Shown: positions 6,507 through 63,711, numbered from the stretch's first letter. The stretch is 64,000 nt of DNA from Gemmatimonadota bacterium (GCA_016194585.1 JACQBG010000012.1:1-64000); one strand, 5' to 3'. Notes: generated from the letters alone by a model not told the origin. Program-made: numbers and translations.

Positions 6507-7655
6507 TCAGGGCCGGATCGAGAGCCCGACGCTCAGGATCATGCCGGTCTCGTCGGCGCCCACGGTCGTGCGGTGCGCGCGCGAGAGCGCGATGTCGATC
6601 ATCCCCTTGCCCGAGGCCACAGGCAGGCCGATCCCACCCGTGTAGGAGAGCTCCTTCACCGCGTTGCCGCGCAGGCTGAACGGCAGATCGCGCTGGCGGT
6701 AGCCGAGCCGGATGGCGACGTCGCTGTTGTTCATCTTCGGCCCCGAGAGCTCGGCACCGAACCCGATGTCGGTCGCGTCCTGGATGGGGAGCGTGGCGGT
6801 GCCGAGCCCCTTGAGATCGCTGAACCGCTCGGAGGACCAGCGGAAGGCGAACGACGAGCCGGGGATGCCGTCGTAGCCGATCGAGGCGCTGTAGCGCCCC
6901 GGGATGCGCGCCCGGCCGAGCACGGTCGAATCACCCTGCCGGACGTCGATGTTGCTGCCGAAGCGCGCCGACGCGGCGACGTTCAGGTGCGAGAACGGCG
7001 TGCCGACCATGCCGACCGAGAGCGCGCTCCCGGCATAGGTGATCTCGCCGTTCTGGGTGAAGCCGCCGAACGTTCCGGAATCGGTGAACTCGCGGCCGAT
7101 GGAGGTGTTGTTGCGCCCGGGATAGAAGTGCAGGCCGACACCGAGCACGAACCGGTCGCTGAAGCGCCACGCCCCGGCGGCGCGGATGTCGGAGATGCCG
7201 CCATCGCTCGACGCGTTGACATTCGAGGCGACCCGCGTGCCGCTGACCGTGATCGTGTCGGCGTAGCTGTTCGACCACGAACGGTCGAGGTAGCTCGAGA
7301 AGGAGAGGCCGAAGGTGGCCTGCCCCGCCTGCGCGGTGATGCCGAACATCGGGAACCGGGCGGTGGTCGCGTGCGACGTAAGCCCGCCGACCGACGAGGT
7401 GCGGAACTCGGGGTCGTACTGCGCGTAGACGAGCGCGCGCGCGCCAGCGCCGATCGCGGCGGGGTTGAGCGGCGACTGCGGATCGAAATCGGCGAGCGAC
7501 CCGCCCGTGGCGAGCGAGCGCGTGCTCAGCTGCCCGCCGGGATACCCGAACCCCTGCAGGCCGAGGGCGCCCTGCGCGCGGAGCGCCGGCACGGTGATGG
7601 CCGCGAGCGCGAGCGTGCGCACGACGCGCCGGAACGGAAGCGACGTGATGCGCAT
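6507..7655 (-). CDS. Exported protein, probable outer-membrane beta-barrel
   Basis: A 382-residue protein with a signal peptide (basic start, hydrophobic stretch, cleavage near ALRAQ). The body consists of alternating amphipathic strands rich in Tyr, Ser and Gly (for example RYSASIGYDGIPG, DVAIRLGYRQ). The final strand, ILSVGLSIRP, resembles a barrel end although the terminal residue is not aromatic. Overall it looks like a barrel or porin-like protein of unassigned family. The start overlaps the stop of the upstream lipoprotein gene by one base (TGATG), so the two are probably made together and may form an envelope complex. I do not recognise a specific function. Confidence 0.65.
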   Translation of the reverse strand: MRITSLPFRRVVRTLALAAITVPALRAQGALGLQGFGYPGGQLSTRSLATGGSLADFDPQSPLNPAAIGAGARALVYAQYDPEFRTSSVGGLTSHATTARFPMFGITAQAGQATFGLSFSSYLDRSWSNSYADTITVSGTRVASNVNASSDGGISDIRAAGAWRFSDRFVLGVGLHFYPGRNNTSIGREFTDSGTFGGFTQNGEITYAGSALSVGMVGTPFSHLNVAASARFGSNIDVRQGDSTVLGRARIPGRYSASIGYDGIPGSSFAFRWSSERFSDLKGLGTATLPIQDATDIGFGAELSGPKMNNSDVAIRLGYRQRDLPFSLRGNAVKELSYTGGIGLPVASGKGMIDIALSRAHRTTVGADETGMILSVGLSIRP

Positions 7656-8929
7656 CAGGGGACTCCGAAAGTGACTTTGGGGATGTACGTGATGCGCATC
7701 GAGGGACGCAGCGCCGGCGGCGCGTTCGTGCCGTAGAAGCGCACTTCGGTCGGATAGAGCGATTCCTCCGAGGCGCGCAGCACGACGGAGCGCGTAGGAG
7801 GCGCGAGGAGCGACACCTGCGCGCCCCACAGGCGCACGAGCCCGTACATCTCGACGTTCTTCACGCCGGTGTCGGTCGGCACGACGAGGAGCGAATCGTA
7901 CACGCCGATGCCGGAACTGCCGAGGATCGTCGCGGCGCGGCGAAGGTCGGTGACGAGCGGGCCGGCGAGCACGGGATGCGTCTTGACGGTGATCGAGTCG
8001 TTCACGCCGCCGAACGCCACTGGCACCTGCGTGAGCCGCAGCGTGGCCCGCACGACGGTCGTCGAATCGGTGATGTAGCGCGGGAGGTTGAAGCGCAGGT
8101 ACGTGCGCCGCCCGGGGACGCCGCCCACCGACATCGTGTTCGGCGGCGCGGGGGGCATGTTGTACTTGGCGATGACCTGATAATCCGTGAGCGTCGTCTG
8201 CAGGTCGGGCTGCGCCTTGGGCGTGCCCGAGAATGCGCTGATCGTGATCGGGAGGATCGTCGAGTCGCGCGCTGGACGGAAGGTGACCGTCGTGGTCCAC
8301 CCCGTCTCGGTCGTCTTCATGATCACCGAGGCCGACCCCGTGCCGTCGACGCGGAAGCCGAGACGAAGGCGCGACTTCGCCTTGATCTTCGCGAGCATCG
8401 CCGAATCGCTGATCGGCACGAGCAACGTGTCGGTGAGCGAGTCCTTGAGCACCGTGAGGGAGCCGAGGCGGCGCGACGGCACGAACTTCGCCAGCACCGC
8501 CGTCGTCGTCGTGTCGTCGGCGGTCGAGTCGTCGACGTCGTACACCTCGAAGCGCACCGACGACGGGAGGGTCGCGCGCGTGCGGTCGAGTACGATCTTC
8601 ACGCGCGTCGAGTCCACCGTCGTGATGGGACGCGCCGTGTCGCTCGGCACGGGATAGGAGAAGAGGAGCGAATCGAACCGCACGACGCCACGCGTCTCCA
8701 CCGTGTCACCGCGGGTGGCGAGGAGCAGGCCGAGCTCGTTGCCGCGGTCGGGGAAGCCCACGAACGTGCTGTCGAACGCGAGCACCGGCGAGATGACGGT
8801 GTCGTGCACGGCGACATCCTGGGCCGGACAGAGGGCCGGGCAGGTGTTGCTCGTGGTGAGCGACTCCCCGCAGGCGGCGATTCCCGTGGCGAGAACGACC
8901 GCGAGGAGGAGAGAGATGCGACGGATCAT
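7655..8929 (-). CDS. Lipoprotein of unknown function
   Basis: A 424-residue protein starting [21 protein letters not shown]20 sits in a lipobox-like IAAC, so it is probably lipidated and inserted in the envelope. The mature part is rich in Thr, Ser, Val and Asp and predicted mostly beta, without a recognised catalytic motif. The upstream frame is open for another 47 codons, but ATG at 8929 directly precedes a perfect lipoprotein signal and overlaps the cdd stop by four bases. It is coupled downstream to the putative barrel protein. Function unknown; an accessory partner of that barrel is a reasonable guess. Confidence 0.7.
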
Positions 8930-53788: not shown

Positions 53789-54636
53789 CCCCGCGGCGGT
53801 TCCCCTCCCGCCTCGACCGACTGCAGGATCTCCGCGCACCGCTTGCCCCACGGATTGAACTTGTTGGTCGCGTGCCCCTTGGCCCACGCCGCCTTCGCCT
53901 CGTCCTTCTGGTCGTTGAACCAGTACGCGCGCCCGAGTTCGTAATACGCCTCGATGAGGTTCGGCCCGATGGCGAGCGTCTTCTGGAAGAAGTTCTCCGC
54001 GTCCTCGTACATCTCGCGCTCGAGGTACACGAGCCCGAGATAGAAGTGCGCGTAGAGCGTCGCCTTCTTGTCGTTGTCGAGTCGGATCGCCTTCGACAGG
54101 TGCTCGATGGCCTCGCCGAAGATCTTCTTCTTGAGGCAGATGTATCCGACGTTGATGCGCGCCAGCGCGTTCGACGGCTCCTTCATGAGCACCTTCTGGA
54201 AGCTCATCATCGCCTCGTCGTACTTCTCCTGCAGCATCTGCGCCCAGCCGAGCAGCGCGATGGCCTGCACGTCGCCCGGCGAGAGGTCGATCGCCTTGAG
54301 CAGCGCCGTCTCGGCGCCCTCGTGGTCGCCGAGCGAGAGACGGCTCCACCCTTTCTCGATGAACGTCGACGCGCCGATGTGGTCGGCGTGCACCACGGGG
54401 CGCTCGGCGCTGAACTGCGGCGCCAGCGAGGGCGCGGCGGCCTGCGCGGCCTTCCACTTGTCGACGAGCGCCTTGATGTCGTCCTTGAGCGCCGAGAGCT
54501 CGGCCACCTGCTGCTCGACGGTCTTGAAGAGGGCGATGATCTCTCCCTTCACCGCGGCGTCGGCCGTGCCGGCGTCGAGGCGGCGGTCGATGTCGGCGTA
54601 GCGCGCCCTCATGGCGCCGATGAGGTCGTCAGTCAT
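53785..54636 (-). CDS. Cytoplasmic TPR protein of the Che series
   Basis: A 283-residue protein without signal. The N-terminal 60 residues form a helix likely to coil (IIALFKTVEQQVAELSALKD), then at least five TPRs run from about 105 to the C-terminus (ASTFIEKGWSRLSLGDHEGA, VQAIALLGWAQMLQEKYDEA, and AHFYLGLVYLEREMYEDAEN). ATG at 54636 overlaps the CheW-like gene by eight bases. A scaffold function is inferred from repeats and position. Confidence 0.85.
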   Translation of the reverse strand: MTDDLIGAMRARYADIDRRLDAGTADAAVKGEIIALFKTVEQQVAELSALKDDIKALVDKWKAAQAAAPSLAPQFSAERPVVHADHIGASTFIEKGWSRLSLGDHEGAETALLKAIDLSPGDVQAIALLGWAQMLQEKYDEAMMSFQKVLMKEPSNALARINVGYICLKKKIFGEAIEHLSKAIRLDNDKKATLYAHFYLGLVYLEREMYEDAENFFQKTLAIGPNLIEAYYELGRAYWFNDQKDEAKAAWAKGHATNKFNPWGKRCAEILQSVEAGGEPPRG

Positions 54637-55138
54637 GTCGGGTGGCTCCGGCGACGGCGTGTTCGAGGACGATCCGCTCGCGCGCCGTGAGCAGTTGGGC
54701 GACGTCGAGCACGACGAGCGGGGGCGCGCCCTCGGTGGCCCCGCGCACGAGGGCACGGAGGTACTGCTTGGCGAGGCCGCGGAAGAACGCCGGCGGCGCT
54801 TCCATCTGCGCGGCGGTCACCGTAGCGACCTCGTCGACGGCGTCGACGATCGCGCCCATCAGTTCGTCGCCGGCGCTCACGACGACGATGCGCGCGCCCT
54901 CGCGCGACGCGGCCGCGGGGAGTTCGAAGCGCGTGCGCAGGTCGATCACCGGCACCACCTTGCCGCCGAAGTCGATGACCCCCTCGAGCCAGGCGGGGAC
55001 GTTCGGGATCGGGCGGGGCGGCGCGAATCGCAGCACGCGCTTGACGGAGAAGATGTCGACGGCGAAGCGGTCGTCGCCGACGCGGAAGGTCACGAGCTGC
55101 TGCCGCTCGGCGGCGGCGCCGGCCGGTGGTGCGTTCAT
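54629..55138 (-). CDS. CheW-like adaptor 1
   Basis: A 169-residue single CheW domain: LVTFRVGDDRFAVDIFSVKR, VPAWLEGVIDFGGKVVPVIDLRTRF and IVVVSAGDELMGAIVDAVDE are the diagnostic strands. CheW adaptors couple receptors to CheA. Beginning four bases inside the end of the second CheW-like gene, it is followed by the TPR gene. No CheA is in the window. Confidence 0.92.
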   Translation of the reverse strand: MNAPPAGAAAERQQLVTFRVGDDRFAVDIFSVKRVLRFAPPRPIPNVPAWLEGVIDFGGKVVPVIDLRTRFELPAAASREGARIVVVSAGDELMGAIVDAVDEVATVTAAQMEAPPAFFRGLAKQYLRALVRGATEGAPPLVVLDVAQLLTARERIVLEHAVAGATRHD

Positions 55139-55608
55139 CGGGCGCTCTCCGTGGTCATGGGCGCGGTCGCCGCCGCCTTCTCGAGCAGCGTGGCGACCCG
55201 CACGAGGTTCACGAGTTGTCCGTCGTGGCGCGCGCCGACGCAGACGCCGGCGAGCACGCCGTCGGCGTCGCTCCCGGCGGGCGCGGGGCGCAGCGTGGTC
55301 ACGTCGAGCGCCGTGAGGTCGTCGACGTCGTCGACGACGAGCACGGCGCGGCGGTCGCCGACGCGCAGCACGAGCGCGGTCGACGCGGTTCCGTCACGAG
55401 CGACGCCGAACGCCCAGCCGGCGTCGAACGCGGTGAGGGTGCGGTCGCGATGGCGCATCTGCCCGGCGAGTCCCGGCGGCGCGGCGGGCACCCATTCGAG
55501 CGCCGGCCGGTCGATGGCCTCCTCGACGTCGGCGACGGCGAAGGCGAACCGCTCGCTCCCCACGCGCGCGATCACATGGAGGTCGCGGATCGGCGCGCCG
55601 CCGGTCAT
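55135..55608 (-). CDS. CheW-like adaptor 2
   Basis: A 157-residue CheW-type domain more diverged than its neighbour: LHVIARVGSERFAFAVADVE, PGLAGQMRHRDRTLTAFDAG and ALVLRVGDRRAVLVVDDVDD. The loop that normally reads GVINLRG is LAGQMRHR. Two unlike CheW proteins in one series suggest two receptor or kinase contacts, or a specialised connector. ATG overlaps the cheB stop by four bases. Confidence 0.85.
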   Translation of the reverse strand: MTGGAPIRDLHVIARVGSERFAFAVADVEEAIDRPALEWVPAAPPGLAGQMRHRDRTLTAFDAGWAFGVARDGTASTALVLRVGDRRAVLVVDDVDDLTALDVTTLRPAPAGSDADGVLAGVCVGARHDGQLVNLVRVATLLEKAAATAPMTTESAR

Positions 55609-56687
55609 GCGGTGCCCCGTGCGGCGCGGCGCGCGCGCAGCAGCGTCGCGACGTGCGACGCGATGTCGCCGAGCGGCGCGACGGCGTCGGCGCCGGCGCT
55701 CTCGAGCGCGGCGGCGGGCATGCCGTAGATGATGCTCGTCGCGCGGTCCTGCACCACCGCGCCCCCTCCCGCACCACGCATCGCGAGCAGCCCGGCGCTC
55801 CCGTCGCGCCCCATGCCGGTGAGCACCACGCCCACGGCGGCGGCGCCGAAGGTGCGCGCCACCGACGCGAAGAGCGGATCGGCGGCGGGCTTCACGCCCC
55901 ACACGGCGGCGCCGTCGTCGAGATGCACGCGCGCGCCATCCGGCGCGCCGGCGACCGTCATGTGCTGGCCGCCCGGCGCGATGTACACGTGGTTGGGGAG
56001 CACGAGCTCGCCGTCCGCCGCCTCGGTCACCTCGAGCCGCGCCTGCGCGTCGAGGCGCTGGGCGAGTCCGGCGGTGAAGCCGCGCGGCATGTGCTGCGCG
56101 ACGAGCACGGCGGCGTCGAGGTCGGCGGGGAGCGCGGGGATGAATTCGGCGAGCGCGCGCGGCCCGCCGGTCGACGACGCGACGGCGACCGCCGCGCGCG
56201 CGCCGAGGGTGCCGTGCGCCGCCCGCTTCTCGGCATGCTTCGGGCGCGCGAGCATCGGCACGCCGCGCAGGTTGACCACCGCCGCGGCGCGCAGTGCCTC
56301 GAGCAGTCGCTCGCGCACCTCGGTCACCTGGCGCGCGCCGGCGGCCTGCGGCTTGCGCACGAAATCCACCGCGCCGAGTTCGAGGGCGCGCAGCGTGAGG
56401 TCGACGTCGCCGTGCGACTCGGCGCCGCTGAGCATCACGACGGGGCGCGGCGTCTCGCTCATGATGTACCCGAGCGCGCCGATGCCGTCGAGCCCCGGCA
56501 TCGCGATGTCGAGAGTGACGATGTCGGGGTCGAGGGCGTGCACCTGGGCGAGCGCGTCGAGGCCGTCCTTCGCGACGCCGATCACGGTGAACTCGTCGAA
56601 TCCGCCGACGACGTCGCTGATGACGGTGCGCATGAGCGCGCTGTCGTCGACGACGAGCACGGTGCGGCGTGGCCGGTCAGAGGACAT
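55605..56687 (-). CDS. cheB: Chemotaxis protein-glutamate methylesterase CheB
   Basis: A 360-residue response-regulator methylesterase. Receiver: VLVVDDSALMRTVIS with acidic pair, phosphoacceptor in DIVTLDIAMPGLDG, and RKP lysine. Catalytic domain: serine in VASSTGGPRALAE, histidine in VAQHMPRGFT, aspartate in GMGRDGSAGL. It demethylates and deamidates receptors for adaptation. Start overlaps the cheD end by 11 bases. Confidence 0.96.
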   Translation of the reverse strand: MSSDRPRRTVLVVDDSALMRTVISDVVGGFDEFTVIGVAKDGLDALAQVHALDPDIVTLDIAMPGLDGIGALGYIMSETPRPVVMLSGAESHGDVDLTLRALELGAVDFVRKPQAAGARQVTEVRERLLEALRAAAVVNLRGVPMLARPKHAEKRAAHGTLGARAAVAVASSTGGPRALAEFIPALPADLDAAVLVAQHMPRGFTAGLAQRLDAQARLEVTEAADGELVLPNHVYIAPGGQHMTVAGAPDGARVHLDDGAAVWGVKPAADPLFASVARTFGAAAVGVVLTGMGRDGSAGLLAMRGAGGGAVVQDRATSIIYGMPAAALESAGADAVAPLGDIASHVATLLRARRAARGTA

Positions 56688-57153
56688 GTTCCCCTCCCCG
56701 CACCGACCGCACGGCGACGACCCCGGTGGCGACGTCGAAGCGGATGGTGCGGCCGAAGTCGCCGCCGATCTCCTCGCCGGCGAGCCGCACCCGCGCCGCG
56801 GCGAGCGCGGCGCGCGCGGCGTCGGCGTTGCGCGCCCCCATCGTGCCGCCGGTCGAGGCGAGGAGGTCGCCGAAGAGCTTCGCCCCGCCGACGATCTTCC
56901 CGACGAACGGCCCCGTCGCGCCGAGCGCGCGCATCTCCCCGAGCAGGAGCGGCACGGCGGTGCTCGCGTACTTCGCGCGGTTCTCCACGGCGCGGCTGGC
57001 CGGCGGCGCCGGCAGCAGGATGTGCGCGAGCCCGCCGACGCGCGCCATCGGATCGTGGATCGCGATCGCGATGCACGATCCGAGGCCGACGCTCACGAGC
57101 TCGCCGGCCTCCGCCACGACCGCGTGATGGGCGATGCGTACCATGTGTTCCAC
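56677..57153 (-). CDS. cheD: Chemoreceptor glutamine deamidase CheD
   Basis: A 158-residue CheD with catalytic Cys in SVGLGSCIAIAIHDP, the His in RVGGLAHILLP, KIVGGAKLFG and a final VRSVRGGEHVL strand. It deamidates receptor glutamines and can interact with CheC. GTG at 57153 overlaps the cheR TAG by one base; ATG at 57144 is an alternative start. No cheC is adjacent. Confidence 0.92.
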   Translation of the reverse strand: MEHMVRIAHHAVVAEAGELVSVGLGSCIAIAIHDPMARVGGLAHILLPAPPASRAVENRAKYASTAVPLLLGEMRALGATGPFVGKIVGGAKLFGDLLASTGGTMGARNADAARAALAAARVRLAGEEIGGDFGRTIRFDVATGVVAVRSVRGGEHVL

Positions 57154-57968
57154 TACACGCGCCGGAAGATGCGTTGGCGCTGGTCGACGACCTCGAACAG
57201 CGCCCGCGCCGGGCCGAGCAACGTCTCGACCTTCCCGAGCACGAGCAGTCCGCCGGGCGCGAGCGCGTCGTGGAAGCGGCGCAGCAGCCCCTCCTGCGAG
57301 GCGCGGTCGAAGTAGATGATCACGTTGCGGCAGGTGATGAGCTGGTACGGCCCGTTGGGCGGCGCCTCGCGCAGCATGTCGTGGCGGCGGAAGTCGAGCA
57401 GCGCGCGGAGTTCGGGGGCCGCGGTGCGCGCCGCGCCGAAGTATCGCTCGCGCAGCGCGGCGGGCATCTCGGCGAACGCCGCCTCGTCGTAGCGGCCGGC
57501 CGCCGCGGCCTCGAGACTCGCCCGGTCGATGTCGGTCGCGACGATGCGCAGCCGCGCGAGCCGCTCCGTCTCGTGCCGCGCCGCGGCGTAGGCGTGCCAG
57601 AGGGCGGCGAGCGTGTACGCTTCCTCCCCCGACGAACAGCCGGCGACCCAACCGCGGAGCCGTGGCGTCGGGAGCGCCCACAACTCCGGGAGCACCTGCT
57701 CGCGGACCGCGTGCCACGCCTCGGAGTTGCGATAGAGCTTGGTGACGTTGATCGTGAGGGCGTCGAGCAGCCGTTCGTATTCGGCCGGGTCCTGGTCGAG
57801 CAGGCGGCCGTACGCCGCGTAGTCGGTCTGGCCGCGCGCGCGCATGCGCACGGCGATGCGGCGGCGCAGGCAGGTGCCCTTGTAACTCGGCGCGACGAAG
57901 CCGCGGTCGCGCGCGATCTTGTCGGTGAGCGCCAGGAACGCCTCGGCGTCGTCGGCGGGGGCGGTCAC
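57153..57968 (-). CDS. cheR: Chemotaxis protein methyltransferase CheR
   Basis: A 271-residue SAM-dependent methyltransferase. N-terminal helices (DKIARDRGFVAPSYKGTCLR), LTINVTKLYRNSEAW, SAM motif VAGCSSGEEAYTLA, IVATDIDRASLEAA and ITCRNVIIYFDRA. It methylates receptor glutamates. GTG start overlaps the DUF4388-TPR stop by four bases, linking it to the DnaA-like and MglA genes upstream. Confidence 0.95.
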   Translation of the reverse strand: MTAPADDAEAFLALTDKIARDRGFVAPSYKGTCLRRRIAVRMRARGQTDYAAYGRLLDQDPAEYERLLDALTINVTKLYRNSEAWHAVREQVLPELWALPTPRLRGWVAGCSSGEEAYTLAALWHAYAAARHETERLARLRIVATDIDRASLEAAAAGRYDEAAFAEMPAALRERYFGAARTAAPELRALLDFRRHDMLREAPPNGPYQLITCRNVIIYFDRASQEGLLRRFHDALAPGGLLVLGKVETLLGPARALFEVVDQRQRIFRRV

Positions 57969-59584
57969 GACAGGCCCTTGGCCGCCTCGAGGTTCTGGCG
58001 GACGATCCTGTTGCCTGGGTCGAGGGCGAGCGCGCGTTCCCAGCTCTGGATCGCGTCGGCGCGTTCGCGGCGCTTCAGGCGGATGTTGCCGAGCTTGAAC
58101 CAGACGTCGGGGCCGAGGCGCTCGTTGAGCTTGACGGCGCGCTGGTACGCGTCGAACGCCTCGTCGAACCGTCCGGCGCGGTACAGGCAGTCGCCGTGGT
58201 TCTTGTAGAGCGTGGCGATGCCCGGATCCTCGGCGATGCCGCGCTCGGCCGCGGCCATGGCCTCGGCGTTCTGTCCCTTGCGCTCGAGCGCCACGGCGAG
58301 GTTGTTGTGCAGCACGGCCGCGTGCGGATAGGCGGACGTCCCTTCGCGGAGCAGTTCGACGGCCTCGTCGGTGCGCCCGCCGAGCCAGGCGGTGAGCGCG
58401 GCGAAGTGGAACCAGACGGCGCTCGGCGTGTTCTCGCCGAACAGCGGGCGCGCCGCCTGCAGCGCGGTGTCGGCGCCCTCGAGGCTCCCCTCGCGCAGCG
58501 CGAGCACGGCGAGCGAGACGTGCACGCGCGGGTCGCGGTCGCCGCCGCGCGTCATCGCCTCGCGCAGCGCGTCGCGCGCCTTGGCGAACTCGCCGCGCCG
58601 TTCGAAGGCGAAGGCGAGGTTGTGGAACACGGCGGGCGCGGCGAGCCGGGAGTGCGAGGCCGCTTCGAAGTCGGCGACGGCGCCGTCCCACCGGCCGAGC
58701 CGCAGGTGCACGAGTCCGAGCACGAAGCGCGCCTGCAGGTCGCCGGGGCGCAGGTCGGCGACGCGGCGGAACTCGCGCTCGGCCTCGTCGAGCATCCCGG
58801 TCTTGTAGAATGCGATGCCGAGGTTGCGGTGCTCCTCGACGCGCGCGTCGGGCGCCATCACCTCGGCGGCCTTCGTCTTCCCCACGCGGTGCAGGAAGCC
58901 GGCCGTGGCGAGGCCGTACAGCGCCTTCCCCACCTCGAACTCGACGAGCCCCGATTCCTCGACGAGCACCGTGACGTCGCGCCGCCCGTCGATGAGGGGG
59001 AGCAGCACCTCCTGTTCCTTCGACAGGCTGCCGCGGCTCTCCTCGACGCGCCGGCGGTCGACGTCGAACACGATGTCGAACGAGGGGATCTTCTTCTCGA
59101 TCAAGCCCCACTCGTCGACGCGGCGCGCGCCCTCGAGCAGCAGCGACTCGGGGTTGATCGAGACCAGGAAGTCCTGCTCCTCGGGGGCGAGGTCGGGCTC
59201 GAAGTTGAACGTGCCCTGCGACCAGGTGAAGAGGAAGTACACCGCCTCCTCGATCTGCACGCGGATCTGGTCGTGGAGCGCCTCGCGCGAGATGATGCCG
59301 AGCGAGACGAGGATCTCGCCGAGCCGCTTGTCGCGCTGCTTCCCTTGCGCGGCGATCGCCTCGTCGAGCTGCGCCGGCGAGATCGCCCCGCTCTTCAGCA
59401 GGATGTCGCCGAGCCGGTCGCGCCGGTTGACGATCGACGCGTAGCAGATGCGTCCCTTGTCGAAGTAGATGGAGCCGAAGTTGTTCCGGTGCGTGACCGA
59501 CAGGCATCCGGTCTTCTTCCCCATCGAGAGGAGCTGGAGGACGTCGGGAAGGCTGGCTTCCTTGAGGCTGCCCTTGATGGCCAT
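57965..59584 (-). CDS. DUF4388/PATAN-type domain protein with C-terminal TPRs
   Basis: A 539-residue cytoplasmic protein. The N-terminal domain starts MAIKGSLKEASLPDVLQLLS with GCLSVTHRNNFGSIYFDKGR, the DUF4388 pattern found in two-component and gliding-motility proteins of myxobacteria and cyanobacteria. A GSPII_E-like helical piece follows (DRLGDILLKSGAISPAQLDE, KRLGEILVSLGIISREALHD). From about residue 260 at least six TPRs extend to the end. ATG shares one base with the stop of the DnaA-like gene (TGATG). A scaffold linking output proteins is plausible; this is inference. Confidence 0.85.
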   Translation of the reverse strand: MAIKGSLKEASLPDVLQLLSMGKKTGCLSVTHRNNFGSIYFDKGRICYASIVNRRDRLGDILLKSGAISPAQLDEAIAAQGKQRDKRLGEILVSLGIISREALHDQIRVQIEEAVYFLFTWSQGTFNFEPDLAPEEQDFLVSINPESLLLEGARRVDEWGLIEKKIPSFDIVFDVDRRRVEESRGSLSKEQEVLLPLIDGRRDVTVLVEESGLVEFEVGKALYGLATAGFLHRVGKTKAAEVMAPDARVEEHRNLGIAFYKTGMLDEAEREFRRVADLRPGDLQARFVLGLVHLRLGRWDGAVADFEAASHSRLAAPAVFHNLAFAFERRGEFAKARDALREAMTRGGDRDPRVHVSLAVLALREGSLEGADTALQAARPLFGENTPSAVWFHFAALTAWLGGRTDEAVELLREGTSAYPHAAVLHNNLAVALERKGQNAEAMAAAERGIAEDPGIATLYKNHGDCLYRAGRFDEAFDAYQRAVKLNERLGPDVWFKLGNIRLKRRERADAIQSWERALALDPGNRIVRQNLEAAKGLS

Positions 59585-61464
59585 CAGCGCAGCTCCTCGA
59601 TGAGCCGCGCCGTCGCGTCGGGCCACTCCCAGACGATCTTCTCGGCGTCGTACGGCACGCTGTCGCGCGTCGCGACCGTGCTCACGGCGAGCACGCCGGC
59701 GTACGGCGTGGCGAGGCCGAGCTCGGCGCGCGCGAGCTGCACGCTGATCGGCGTGCGGGAGGCGTCGGCGGCCGCGCCGAGCCGGTTCACGACGCCGACG
59801 ATCTCGCGCACGCTCTGCACCGGCTGGTCGGCGAGCAGGGTGAGCAGCGCGTCGTCGGCCGGGCGCCCCGCGTCGGCGAGGTAGCGCGCGAACAGCCGCT
59901 GGCGCAGCGTGCGGTCGGGCGCCTGGATCGGCACGACGAGCCCGCCCTCGAAGCGCGAGCGCAACCGCGCCTCGAGGTCGGGGATCTCCGCCGGCGTGCG
60001 GTCGCTCGTCAGCACGATCTGCTTGCCCGCACCGGCGAGCGCGTTGAAGAGCAGGAAGAGTTCGTCCTGCGTGCGTTCCTTGCCGGCGACGAACTGCACG
60101 TCGTCGATGATGAGCGCGTCGGCGTGCCGGTAGCGCAGCCGCCAGCGCTCGATCGTGCCTCCCTGGATCGCCGCGATGAGCTCGTCGATGAACTTCTGCG
60201 CGTGTACGCACGCCACGACCATGCGGCCGCCGCTCGAGGCGAGCAGCGCGTTGCCGATCGCGTTGAGGAGGTGCGTCTTGCCGACGCCGCTCGGGCCGTG
60301 GAAGAGGAGCGGGTTGTACTTCGTCCCGGGCTCGGCGACGACGGTGTCGGCGGCGTGCGCGGCGAGCTGGTTCGAGCTGCTCACCTCGAACGCCTCGCGC
60401 ACGAACGCGGGGCTCGGCCCGTCGGGCGGCGTCGCGCCGGCGAGCGCCCGCTCGACGAGGTCCTCCGCCTCCGCCATCCGCTCGGGATCGCGGAACACGG
60501 AGTTGCCGCCGAGCGACGGGTCCACCGACGTCGCCGTGCGCTCGAGGTTGCGCAGGTGCTCGATCGCCGCCGCGAACGTCGCGAGCAGCCCCGCCACGTC
60601 GGGCTCGCGCGGCAGCGTGAGCGCGCGCTCGATGACCCCGGTCTTGTACCCCTCGCCCTGCCAATACTGCCGCGCCTCGGCGAGCCGGGCCTGCCACGAC
60701 TCGACGTGTTCCTGCACGACGCTCGACACGTCGGAGAGGAAGTCCTCGAACTCGCCGGTGGGGCGTCCCGCGGGCTGCGCCGGCCGGGGGGCGTCGTCCA
60801 CCCCCAGCGCCTGATGCGCGACGAGCCGGTTGAGCGCCCCCTGCAGTTCGCGCACGTTGCCGAAGCTGAACTGCGCGAGCTCCTCGAGCACCCCCTCCTT
60901 GAACGTGAGGTGGCGCTCCTCGCAGTTGGCGCGGAGGATGGCCACGCGCGTCTCGAAGTCGGGCGCCGTCACGTCGACGATGAGCCCGCCCGAGAGGCGG
61001 CTGATGAGCCGCTCGTCGACGTCCCGGATCTCGGCCGGGGGGCGGTCGCTCGTGAGCACGATCTGGCGTCCGGCGCGCTGCATCCGCTCGAACAACTTGA
61101 GCAGCTCGGCCTGCATCTCGCGGTGCCCCGTGAGGAACTGCACGTCGTCGATCAGCAGCACGCTGCACCGCTCGTAGCGGCGCGAGAAGAGTTCGATCTG
61201 CCCGGTCGACGTCGCGGCGAGGAGCTGCCCGACGAACTCCTCGAGCGTGACGTACTCGACCTCGCTCCCGGGCTGCAGCGCCTCGGCGAGGTGGCCGATG
61301 CCGCCGAGCAGGTGCGTCTTGCCCAGTCCGGTGCCGCCGTAGATGAAGAGCGGGTTGTACACCGTGCCCGGCGACTCGGCGACGGCGCGCGCCGCCGCCA
61401 CGGCGAGGCGGTTCCCCGCGCCGACGACCAGCGTGTCGAACCGGAGACGCGCGTCGAGCCGCAC
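59584..61464 (-). CDS. Tandem DnaA-type AAA+ ATPase without DNA-binding domain
   Basis: A 626-residue protein with two DnaA domain-III-like modules. Module 1 (about 8-215): Walker A GGTGLGKTH with K49, Walker B LLIDD (103-107), sensor I LTSDRPPAEI, arginine-finger region RLISRLSGGL and sensor II GNVRELQGALNRL. Module 2 (about 358-550): Walker A GPSGVGKTH with K396, IIDD (452-455), LTSDRTPAEI, RLRSRFEGGL and SVREIVGVVNRL. A 140-residue helical linker lies between. DnaA domains I and IV are absent, so it should not bind DnaA boxes. Both modules keep ATPase residues. GTG start one base after the mglA stop; coupled to the DUF4388 gene. Role unknown. Confidence 0.93.
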   Translation of the reverse strand: MRLDARLRFDTLVVGAGNRLAVAAARAVAESPGTVYNPLFIYGGTGLGKTHLLGGIGHLAEALQPGSEVEYVTLEEFVGQLLAATSTGQIELFSRRYERCSVLLIDDVQFLTGHREMQAELLKLFERMQRAGRQIVLTSDRPPAEIRDVDERLISRLSGGLIVDVTAPDFETRVAILRANCEERHLTFKEGVLEELAQFSFGNVRELQGALNRLVAHQALGVDDAPRPAQPAGRPTGEFEDFLSDVSSVVQEHVESWQARLAEARQYWQGEGYKTGVIERALTLPREPDVAGLLATFAAAIEHLRNLERTATSVDPSLGGNSVFRDPERMAEAEDLVERALAGATPPDGPSPAFVREAFEVSSSNQLAAHAADTVVAEPGTKYNPLLFHGPSGVGKTHLLNAIGNALLASSGGRMVVACVHAQKFIDELIAAIQGGTIERWRLRYRHADALIIDDVQFVAGKERTQDELFLLFNALAGAGKQIVLTSDRTPAEIPDLEARLRSRFEGGLVVPIQAPDRTLRQRLFARYLADAGRPADDALLTLLADQPVQSVREIVGVVNRLGAAADASRTPISVQLARAELGLATPYAGVLAVSTVATRDSVPYDAEKIVWEWPDATARLIEELR

Positions 61465-61465
61465 G

Positions 61466-62071
61466 CTAGAACCGCCCGCCGCCGCTCGTGCTCAGCTTGC
61501 GCAGCACGAGCTCCGACACCGCCCGCAGCGTCTCGAACACGCCGGGCCCGTGCAGCGCGTCGGCCGCGAAGCTCGGCACGTTGCGGAAGTTGAGCTGCTC
61601 GTCGAGCTCGGGCACGGGGAGCAGGAGGTCCTCCGGGAGGTCGCGCTTGTTGTACTGGATGACGAGCGGGATGGTGCGCGCGTCGATGCCGTGGTCGGCG
61701 AGGTTCGCATGCAGGTCCTGCATCGACTCGACGTTCTCGCCGAGCTGCCGCGCCTGGCTGTCGGCGACGAACACGACGCCGTCGGCGCCCTGGAGCACGA
61801 GTTTGCGAGTGGTCTGGTAGTACACCTGGCCGGGCACCGTGTACAGCTGGAAGCGCGTCGTGAAGCCGGAGATCGTGCCGAGGTCGAGCGGCAGGAAGTC
61901 GAAGAACAGCGTCCGGTCGGTCTGGGTCGCGAGCGACACCATCTGCCCTTTCCGGTCGGCCGGCACCTGCGAGTAAATGTAATGCAGGTTCGTCGTCTTC
62001 CCCGACCGCCCGGGGCCGTAGTAGACGATCTTGCAGGTGATCTCGCGCGTCGCGTAGTTGACCAGGCTCAT
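61466..62071 (-). CDS. mglA: MglA-like small GTPase
   Basis: A 201-residue Ras-like GTPase of the MglA family that sets cell polarity in gliding or twitching bacteria. P loop [17 protein letters not shown] (K25), switch I/II regions [12 protein letters not shown] and the MglA-type [20 protein letters not shown], and base motif [10 protein letters not shown]. In Myxococcus its cognate GAP MglB is a roadblock protein; here two roadblock genes lie directly upstream. ATG at 62071. Confidence 0.95.
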
Positions 62072-62078
62072 GGCGTCC

Positions 62079-62549
62079 TCAGGCTCGGCCGAACATCACG
62101 GCGAGGTTGCGATTGAGCTCGCTCTCGAAATTCTCGGCGAGCGCGGCCGGTTCCGCATCGGCCGCCGGCGCCAGCGCCGCGACGGCCTCGCAGAACTGGC
62201 GGAAGAAGAGCTGCACCAGCCCCAGCGAACTCTCCTCGTCGAACACGGCGAACAGGATCAGCGGCGTCGACGTCGTCGGCACCGTCGCGCGCCAGAACTG
62301 GCGCGTCGCGCCCACGTAATGCACCCCCGTGAACGGCTGTCCCTCCAGCATGCGGCCGAGCTCCGCCGACGACGCATGCGTCGCCGCGGCGAGCGCGCAC
62401 GCCGTCATCACGTCCACCGAGCGCGCGAACCCGAACTGCCCGAGCACCTGCCCCGACGGGTGCAGCAACACCCCCAGCTCGAGACGCGCGTCCGCGACGA
62501 GTTGCCGCAACGGCCCCTCCACCCAGCTGGCGGCGACGGTCAGCCTCAC
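62079..62549 (-). CDS. Roadblock/LC7-like protein (MglB-type candidate)
   Basis: A 156-residue single-domain protein: [19 protein letters not shown], helix [20 protein letters not shown], then [16 protein letters not shown] and [12 protein letters not shown] strands, with a helical tail. The fold order matches roadblock/LC7. Lying seven bases before mglA, it is the best candidate for the GTPase partner. GTG start overlaps the upstream roadblock gene by four bases. Confidence 0.8.
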
Positions 62550-62893
62550 TGGAACAGCTCCAGCGCCCGCAGCATCTCCACGCGGATGATCCCCACGTTC
62601 ACCCCGGGCTCGCCGATCACCACGAGCACGAGTTCGTTGCGCCCCACGGCGCACACGCGGCCACCGTCCGCCGTCAGCTCGAAGAAGCCGGCCTCGCCGA
62701 ACCCCGCCGCGAGCGCCGAGCGCCGCGCCTTGCGATAGAGCGACGCGCTCAGCGCCGCGATCGCGTCGCCTTTCACCCCGATCTGCAGGTTCGCCTCGAC
62801 GATCATCCCGTCACGCTCGCCCACGACCAGGCACCCCGACACCCCACGGTGGCGGATGAGCGATCCGAGCACCGCCGTGAACGGACTCGTCAT
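62546..62893 (-). CDS. Roadblock/LC7 protein
   Basis: A 115-residue protein with the roadblock order: SGCLVVGERDGMIVEANLQI, helix DAIAALSASLYRKARRSALA, FFELTADGGRVCAVGRNELV and a final LVVIGEPGVNVGIIRVEML. Second consecutive single-domain roadblock, so a heterodimer with its neighbour is possible. ATG overlaps the upstream stop by four bases. Confidence 0.82.
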   Translation of the reverse strand: MTSPFTAVLGSLIRHRGVSGCLVVGERDGMIVEANLQIGVKGDAIAALSASLYRKARRSALAAGFGEAGFFELTADGGRVCAVGRNELVLVVIGEPGVNVGIIRVEMLRALELFQ

Positions 62894-63711
62894 GTGCCCG
62901 TCTCCAGCCAGCGCTGCGCGCGCGCCACCGACCGCTCGAGCAGCCGCCGCACGAAGCCGAGCGGCACGCTGCGCGGCGTCGCCACGAGCAACACCCCCTC
63001 CCCGCTCGGCGCCATCGCGAGCGATGCCGCCTCCGACTCGAACACGATCTGCTTCCACGCCCCCAGCTTGAGATACTCCACGGCGCGTTCCGCCTCGTCG
63101 CTCACGCCCGAGAGCTGCGCGGCGAGGTCGGCACCGAGGTCGCGTCCGTCGGCCGTCCGGTACTGCCCCGCCACGACATACCCGTCGCGGTCGATGAGCA
63201 GCGCCGTCTGCGGCTGGTCGCCGAGGATCTCGTCGAAGAGCGCGCGCGCGTCGGTCACGGCGTGGGCGTCGCTCGCGCCGGGCGGCGCCGCGGCGACCGC
63301 CGACTCGTCGACGGCGGCGCGCAACGTGCCGAGCGCCGCGGCGAGCGACTGGTCGTCGGGGTCGGCGAGCAGCGCGGCGCCGAGCAGCTCCGCGGCGCCC
63401 GCGAAGTCGCCCTGCTGGAAGCGGAGGAACCCGAGCCCCTTCTGCGCGGCGGCGTGCCCCGGGGCGAGACGCAACACCGCCTCCCATTCCGACTGCGCGC
63501 GCGACGGCTCACCGCGGTCGATGGCGATGCGCGCCAGCAGGTCGTGCGCGTCGGGACGCTGCGGATGCCGCTCGGCGCCACGCTGTGCGACCTTCCACGC
63601 CACGTCGAGCTGGCCGCGCCGGCGCAGCGCCTCCCCGAGCGGGAGGAACGCGATGCTCGACGGGTCGGCCGCGAGCTGGTCGCTGATGGCGCGGACCTCG
63701 TCAGTTGCCAT
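62890..63711 (-). CDS. TPR-roadblock fusion protein
   Basis: A 273-residue protein: three TPR-like pairs (about 20-125; for example FLPLGEALRRRGQLDVAWKV, AAAQKGLGFLRFQQGDFAGA), then a roadblock/LC7 domain (about 150-265) with TALLIDRDGYVVAGQYRTAD, KLGAWKQIVFESEAASLAMA and VLLVATPRSVPLGFVRRLLE. It adds a third roadblock to the MglA neighbourhood and may bridge the GTPase to TPR partners. ATG overlaps the preceding gene by 11 bases. Confidence 0.85.
   Translation of the reverse strand: MATDEVRAISDQLAADPSSIAFLPLGEALRRRGQLDVAWKVAQRGAERHPQRPDAHDLLARIAIDRGEPSRAQSEWEAVLRLAPGHAAAQKGLGFLRFQQGDFAGAAELLGAALLADPDDQSLAAALGTLRAAVDESAVAAAPPGASDAHAVTDARALFDEILGDQPQTALLIDRDGYVVAGQYRTADGRDLGADLAAQLSGVSDEAERAVEYLKLGAWKQIVFESEAASLAMAPSGEGVLLVATPRSVPLGFVRRLLERSVARAQRWLETGT

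Follow-up and report, generated by a model that had tools for sequence, protein, structure and literature searches.

A DnaA-derived tandem AAA+ protein as a candidate RomR-like adaptor of the MglA polarity module in Gemmatimonadota

The window, by which is meant the whole stretch of 64 000 nucleotides of Gemmatimonadota DNA that was analysed, carries on its minus strand an operon in which chemosensory genes stand together with those of a polarity module (Table 1). In order, the operon contains genes for CheW, CheY, CheA, CheC, a long TPR protein, a DUF4388 protein, a TPR-roadblock protein, a roadblock protein, MglB and MglA, followed after MglA by a tandem DnaA-type AAA+ protein, a DUF4388-TPR protein, CheR, a CheD-like protein, CheB, two CheW proteins and a TPR protein. 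The combination that defines an MglA polarity operon, an MglA GTPase with adjoining MglB, is thus present, and no replication gene was found in the operon. The tandem gene is tightly packed between its neighbours, as the initial annotation had noted, with a gap of 1 base between the mglA stop and its start, and with 1 base shared between its TGA and the ATG of the DUF4388-TPR gene. The product of the latter matches the MshE-type c-di-GMP motif model NF053729 at 55.6 bits (curated cut-off 38), which suggests a c-di-GMP input to the polarity operon. It may also be observed that this one operon holds three roadblock-type proteins, the TPR-roadblock fusion among them; MglC was absent from the PDB matches for these roadblock proteins.

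Table 1. Positions, within the window, of the putative adaptor gene, its parts and its neighbours.
Feature	Position	Strand	Remarks
Tandem DnaA-type AAA+ gene (putative polarity adaptor)	59584–61464	minus	626 aa; two Bac_DnaA matches
Module 1	60799–61464	minus	Residues 1–222; complete DnaA domain III; HREM at the ssDNA-contact position (KE.T in DnaA)
Inter-module helical domain (‘linker’)	60409–60759	minus	Residues 236–352 (117 residues)
Module 2	59710–60408	minus	Residues 353–585; second DnaA domain III; intact in the window genome, decayed or lost in other families
C-terminal tail	59587–59643	minus	EKIVWEWPDATARLIEELR; residues 608–626; resembles the RomR C-terminal helix
MglA (operon type)	61466–62071	minus	60% identity to Myxococcus xanthus MglA, E 2e-76
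MglB homologue (roadblock)	62079–62549	minus	Directly upstream of mglA; solved MglB chains, E 3e-6
Second roadblock protein	62546–62893	minus	115 aa; candidate partner on which the tail may dock
TPR-roadblock fusion protein	62890–63711	minus	
DUF4388-TPR protein	57965–59584	minus	MshE-type c-di-GMP-motif match; most constant neighbour of the adaptor
CheR	57153–57998	minus	5′ boundary provisional
CheB	55605–56687	minus	
Two CheW proteins	54629–55605	minus	

The tandem gene runs from a GTG start at 61464 to a stop at 59584–59586, and its product gives two matches to Pfam Bac_DnaA (345 bits in all), of which that in module 1 is full-length. As the initial annotation had claimed, the ATPase apparatus of DnaA domain III is found in each module: Walker A (GGTGLGKTH in module 1, GPSGVGKTH in module 2), Walker B (LLIDDVQF and LIIDDVQF, respectively), sensor I (SDR), the box VII arginine, the arginine finger and sensor II (NVREL and SVREI, respectively). 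With an AAA+ domain III that carries both Walker motifs, the sensors and the arginine finger, the protein belongs among the DnaA-type ATPases. Equally borne out is the absence of the other DnaA domains. No match to domain IV (Bac_DnaA_C) was found in the protein or anywhere in the assembly, and with only some 7 residues ahead of domain III, the mglA stop lying 1 base further upstream, there is no space for domains I and II. At the position that contacts single-stranded DNA, where the DnaA initiator motif reads KE.T, module 1 has HREM or RRET and module 2 has KERT. Since module 1 is without the contacting lysine, it appears unlikely to contact DNA.

An AlphaFold2 model of the protein (mean pLDDT 84.8, pTM 0.47) is confident for the individual domains, not for their relative arrangement, and lays them out as module 1, a helical inter-module domain, module 2 and, from residue 586, a predicted disordered tail. 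The helical linker proposed initially is therefore real, yet it is also a conserved domain of 117 residues, and the protein ends in a conserved tail motif, neither of which had been remarked upon. With Foldseek, the best match of the model is domain III of Bacillus subtilis DnaA (8bv3), with which the modules share the AAA+ fold, ca 45% identity and all the ATPase and arginine-finger motifs; unlike DnaA, the protein is without domains I, II and IV, is duplicated, lacks the ssDNA-contact lysine in module 1 and is encoded in a polarity operon. Lower-ranked Foldseek matches to the tandem AAA proteins p97 and Rix7 are generic, and kinship with these was set aside. Hda, DnaC and IstB likewise belong to the DnaA clade of AAA+ proteins and have no DNA-binding domain, but the protein falls under the curated cut-offs of these families (152 bits with the Hda models, against a cut-off of 194.8), has no clamp-binding motif at its N-terminus, contains two modules and lies outside any replication or transposition context. 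In contrast, NCBIfam TIGR00362, the DnaA equivalog model, scores it at 499 bits (cut-off 343.9), such that automatic pipelines are likely to label it ‘chromosomal replication initiator DnaA’, which is an annotation trap.

In this regard, the draft assembly (G000, 98% complete) lacks both dnaA and dnaN and has no other DnaA module, such that the tandem protein might be taken for the DnaA of this genome. This is ruled out, because dnaN is missing as well and because genus-mates that bear the tandem gene also carry a normal dnaA, the product of which has about 480 aa. In the genus-mates of the window genome dnaN adjoins dnaA, and from the loss of both neighbours the missing region is most likely an assembly gap. 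The true dnaA genes are separate from the adaptor and form their own clade. In the same tree, modules 1 and 2 form one clade each and stand jointly apart from true DnaA (SH-aLRT 98, by a quick method), a topology that fits a history in which domain III of DnaA was recruited once, was duplicated internally once and then decayed repeatedly.

Comparison of the proteins that occupy the same operon slot in other genomes separates the constant from the variable parts. The inter-module domain is conserved and nearly gap-free across the order of the window genome, and gave no convincing match to any Pfam or PDB family, only weak ones at chance level. The last ca 20 residues follow the motif EKxVW[ED]WPxxxxR[ILV][IVL]EExR and, though predicted to be disordered, are about as conserved as the modules. 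By comparison the modules come and go. In families f4 and f5 the slot holds module 1, the linker, a decayed module 2 and the tail, the lid of module 2 being lost and, in one case, its Walker A also; in f6, f9 and Gemmatirosa it holds module 1, the linker and the tail, in a protein of about 400 aa, with sensor and finger residues of module 1 lost in f6. Two genomes (G178 and G260) have the linker and tail with no detectable AAA+ module, one (G016) has a single degenerate module with the tail, and three (G021, G023 and G134) have a mini-protein of about 70 aa made up only of the first helix of the linker (EFxxFLSxV...) and the tail. The G016 copy, at 7389–8237 of locus L044, lies beside a DUF4388-TPR gene and has the same tail, in a genus-mate without an operon-type mglA. 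At L097 9924–10145 and L099 9571–9807, mini-proteins of about 70–80 aa, with linker helix and RomR-like tail, stand between mglA and the DUF4388-TPR gene, where the window genome has its 626-aa protein.

Loss is the best reading of the reduced forms, because module 2 is still present, though broken, in f4 and f5. The occurrence of two-, one- and zero-module versions in one slot marks the AAA+ part as an optional layer upon a core of helix and tail. In other words, judged from these sequences, the two-module tandem is not the essential part of the protein; the first linker helix and the tail are its constant parts. The module-free mini-proteins amount to a series of natural deletions, by which docking can be told apart from ATP control.

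The initial annotation had allowed that the linkage to mglA and che genes might be unique to this genome. It is not: the inter-module domain is present in 176 of 298 Gemmatimonadota genomes, and of 148 copies listed, 125 share their contig with an operon-type mglA no more than 3.5 kb away, and 8 more lie near a contig start. For some of the remaining copies mglA is divergent or unlisted (for example, in G029 and G077), while three genomes (G020, G294 and G260) retain the adaptor without an operon-type mglA, and the linkage of adaptor and MglA is accordingly not absolute. What holds across the phylum is thus the tie between the operon and a DnaA-type AAA+ protein without domain IV, and not the tandem form on which the annotation had laid weight, which is optional. 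Gene order is kept in the inspected genomes of the window genome's order, and other families of the class show it with some genes lost; the DUF4388-TPR gene follows the adaptor in the loci inspected, including four that have no mglA (L033, L044, L087 and L107). The search set includes a genome of the same family, G103, which is Gemmatirosa kalamazoonensis, two large contigs being 100% identical to NZ_CP007129.1 and NZ_CP007130.1.

Group 1 members of MglA in Gemmatimonadetes are already on record (PMC4316618). Two types of MglA are found in the phylum: that of the operon, with best E mostly below 1e-74, and another, at about 1e-60 to 1e-66. Most of the operon-less genomes of the family retain this second type alone. 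MglA–MglB operons elsewhere share with the present one the MglB–MglA pair, the roadblock proteins and the linkage to Che genes, but 80 mglA loci from outside the phylum (Myxococcota, Desulfuromonas/Geobacter-type and Nitrospirota) were examined, and in none of them was an adaptor or DnaA-like gene found beside mglA. Searches with the inter-module domain in 237 genomes of Myxococcota, the phylum of Sorangium, gave two spurious matches only, which on inspection are a TPR-type protein and a Clp-type ATPase. The matches listed from plasmid records all look like ordinary dnaA.

The tail offers the closest point of contact with a known polarity protein. In M. xanthus, the C-terminal helix of RomR (residues 371–420) binds the roadblock protein MglC; E390, K391, W394 and E402 are conserved residues at the modelled MglC interface, and the substitution W394A abolishes binding (PMC12719032). 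RomR also depends on this helix in order to oligomerise and to localise at the pole (PMC10329633). A RomR homologue was located in a Myxococcus-type genome, among its receiver-domain ORFs, from its architecture of receiver, proline-rich stretch and EKxxW, and a RomR tail was then found in 14 of 14 further genomes drawn from the mglA-bearing loci (Myxococcota, Geobacter-type deltaproteobacteria and Nitrospirota). Aligned with hhalign, the adaptor tail family and the RomR C-terminal family agree over 18 columns (E 1.5e-5, probability 79.5), sharing the E-K-x-x-W spacing, a proline thereafter and a closing I-x-E-E, the adaptor tail being about two residues shorter. The best single pair, EKIVWE-WPDATARLI-EELR and EKIVWEVVPDLAETIIKEEIR, needs two one-residue gaps, and most adaptor tails score z 3–6 over shuffles against RomR. 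Scores of the RomR HMM on individual tails are insignificant, although about 7 family members are among the top ca 26 of 8546 ORFs, and in the reverse direction the tail as HMM query gave nothing significant in Myxococcus, Geobacter and Nitrospirota genomes. With single tails insignificant, the likeness is to be treated as a strong lead, not as proof, and it is possible that a similarity of ca 18 columns is convergent or accidental. None of the 150 Gemmatimonadota genomes searched gave a canonical RomR tail, a count that had no positive control from within the phylum.

The best reading of these findings is that the DnaA-derived AAA+ modules stand in place of the receiver domain of RomR in an adaptor of the MglA/MglB polarity module, wired to the chemosensory array, whose oligomerisation the modules may control. 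We put this at roughly even odds (about 0.5). No Response_reg match was found in the 626-aa protein; where RomR has a receiver domain and a proline-rich linker, the adaptor has DnaA-type modules and a unique helical domain, and it is, unlike RomR, encoded within the mgl/che operon. The proposed likeness would extend to the partners, namely MglA, MglB and further roadblock proteins, and to chemosensory input. The roadblock proteins and MglB in the same operon count in favour of an adaptor of RomR type, and the three genomes that have the adaptor and no operon-type MglA count against it. Taken together, a tail that does not change, that resembles the RomR docking helix and that is encoded in a conserved cluster for polarity and movement over surfaces suggests that a replication enzyme has been recruited as a polarity adaptor in Gemmatimonadota, a phylum of soil bacteria.

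Such an adaptor would most likely link the DUF4388-TPR effector to the module's roadblock proteins and in this way steer the polarity of type IV pili, which are the likely target because PilT-family ATPases are found in 41 of 41 relatives; these ATPases are present also in genomes without the operon. The tail would dock on an MglC-like roadblock dimer, as the C-terminus of RomR does on MglC, and thereby place the protein at the pole, while the linker domain, the tail or both would bind the DUF4388-TPR protein. Where the modules are intact, they keep arginine fingers for contacts in trans, and an ATP-dependent head-to-tail assembly in the manner of DnaA could therefore set the number of adaptors in a cluster. 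Chemosensory input would arrive through the same operon, and neither replication nor DNA binding would be the main role. It should be said that ATP control by the modules is something that they may exert, as judged from conserved motifs which some lineages have lost. A more elaborate and less probable version can be offered tentatively, in which the ATPase of the replication initiator was exapted to form the polymerising core of a polarity scaffold: DnaA-style ATP-dependent filaments would carry RomR-type tails and bring roadblock proteins and MglA to the pole under chemosensory control, the ATPase having later been lost in some lineages that kept the docking elements.

Other explanations draw upon the same observations. 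The adaptor might be a partner or chaperone of the DUF4388-TPR protein in c-di-GMP-linked control of pili, unrelated to MglA and with a coincidental likeness to RomR, as could be supposed from the constancy with which the DUF4388-TPR gene comes next, even in the four inspected loci that lack mglA, and from the c-di-GMP motif of its product. Most adaptor copies, however, have mglA and roadblock genes as neighbours, and the helix that the tail matches is one that binds a roadblock protein, which makes this explanation a rather unlikely one. The proposal of the initial annotation, taken as requiring both modules, is that these form an AAA+ dimer within one chain and that the ATP state of the dimer switches or bundles the GTPase apparatus of MglA; it has in its favour that the motifs of both modules are intact in the window genome and its close relatives, and that a conserved helical domain joins them. 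As a general mechanism it is unsupported, and improbable, given that orthologues with one module or none occupy the same slot and that, where modules do persist, module 2 of f4 and f5 has no lid (and in one case no Walker A) and module 1 of f6 has lost sensor and finger residues.

The relationship to DnaA raises a further alternative, in which the modules act as Hda does by binding true DnaA, and so couple replication initiation or the level of ATP-DnaA to polarity or surface signalling. The domain III modules, which retain their arginine fingers and every ATPase motif and are next to DnaA in sequence, the DnaA-like KERT at the ssDNA-contact position of module 2 and the canonical dnaA of adaptor carriers would each agree with such a role. 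Against it stand the sub-threshold Hda scores, the missing N-terminal extension with its clamp-binding motif, an operon without a replication gene and, again, the persistence of module-free versions in that operon, such that an Hda-like regulator is improbable.

MglA and PilT-family ATPases are present in the phylum, yet no canonical RomR tail was found there; a RomR-like adaptor would offer a candidate to fill the vacant role of RomR. We know of no DnaA-derived ATPase with a role outside replication, and no published link between a DnaA-type protein and MglA was found in the literature. If the proposed role is true, the adaptor would be the first known DnaA-derived ATPase to act outside replication. 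As a minor observation, the public genome that bears the label Comamonas sp. KCTC 72670 (L124) contains a 99% M. xanthus-type MglA, together with a RomR homologue, and this record is probably a mislabelled myxobacterium.
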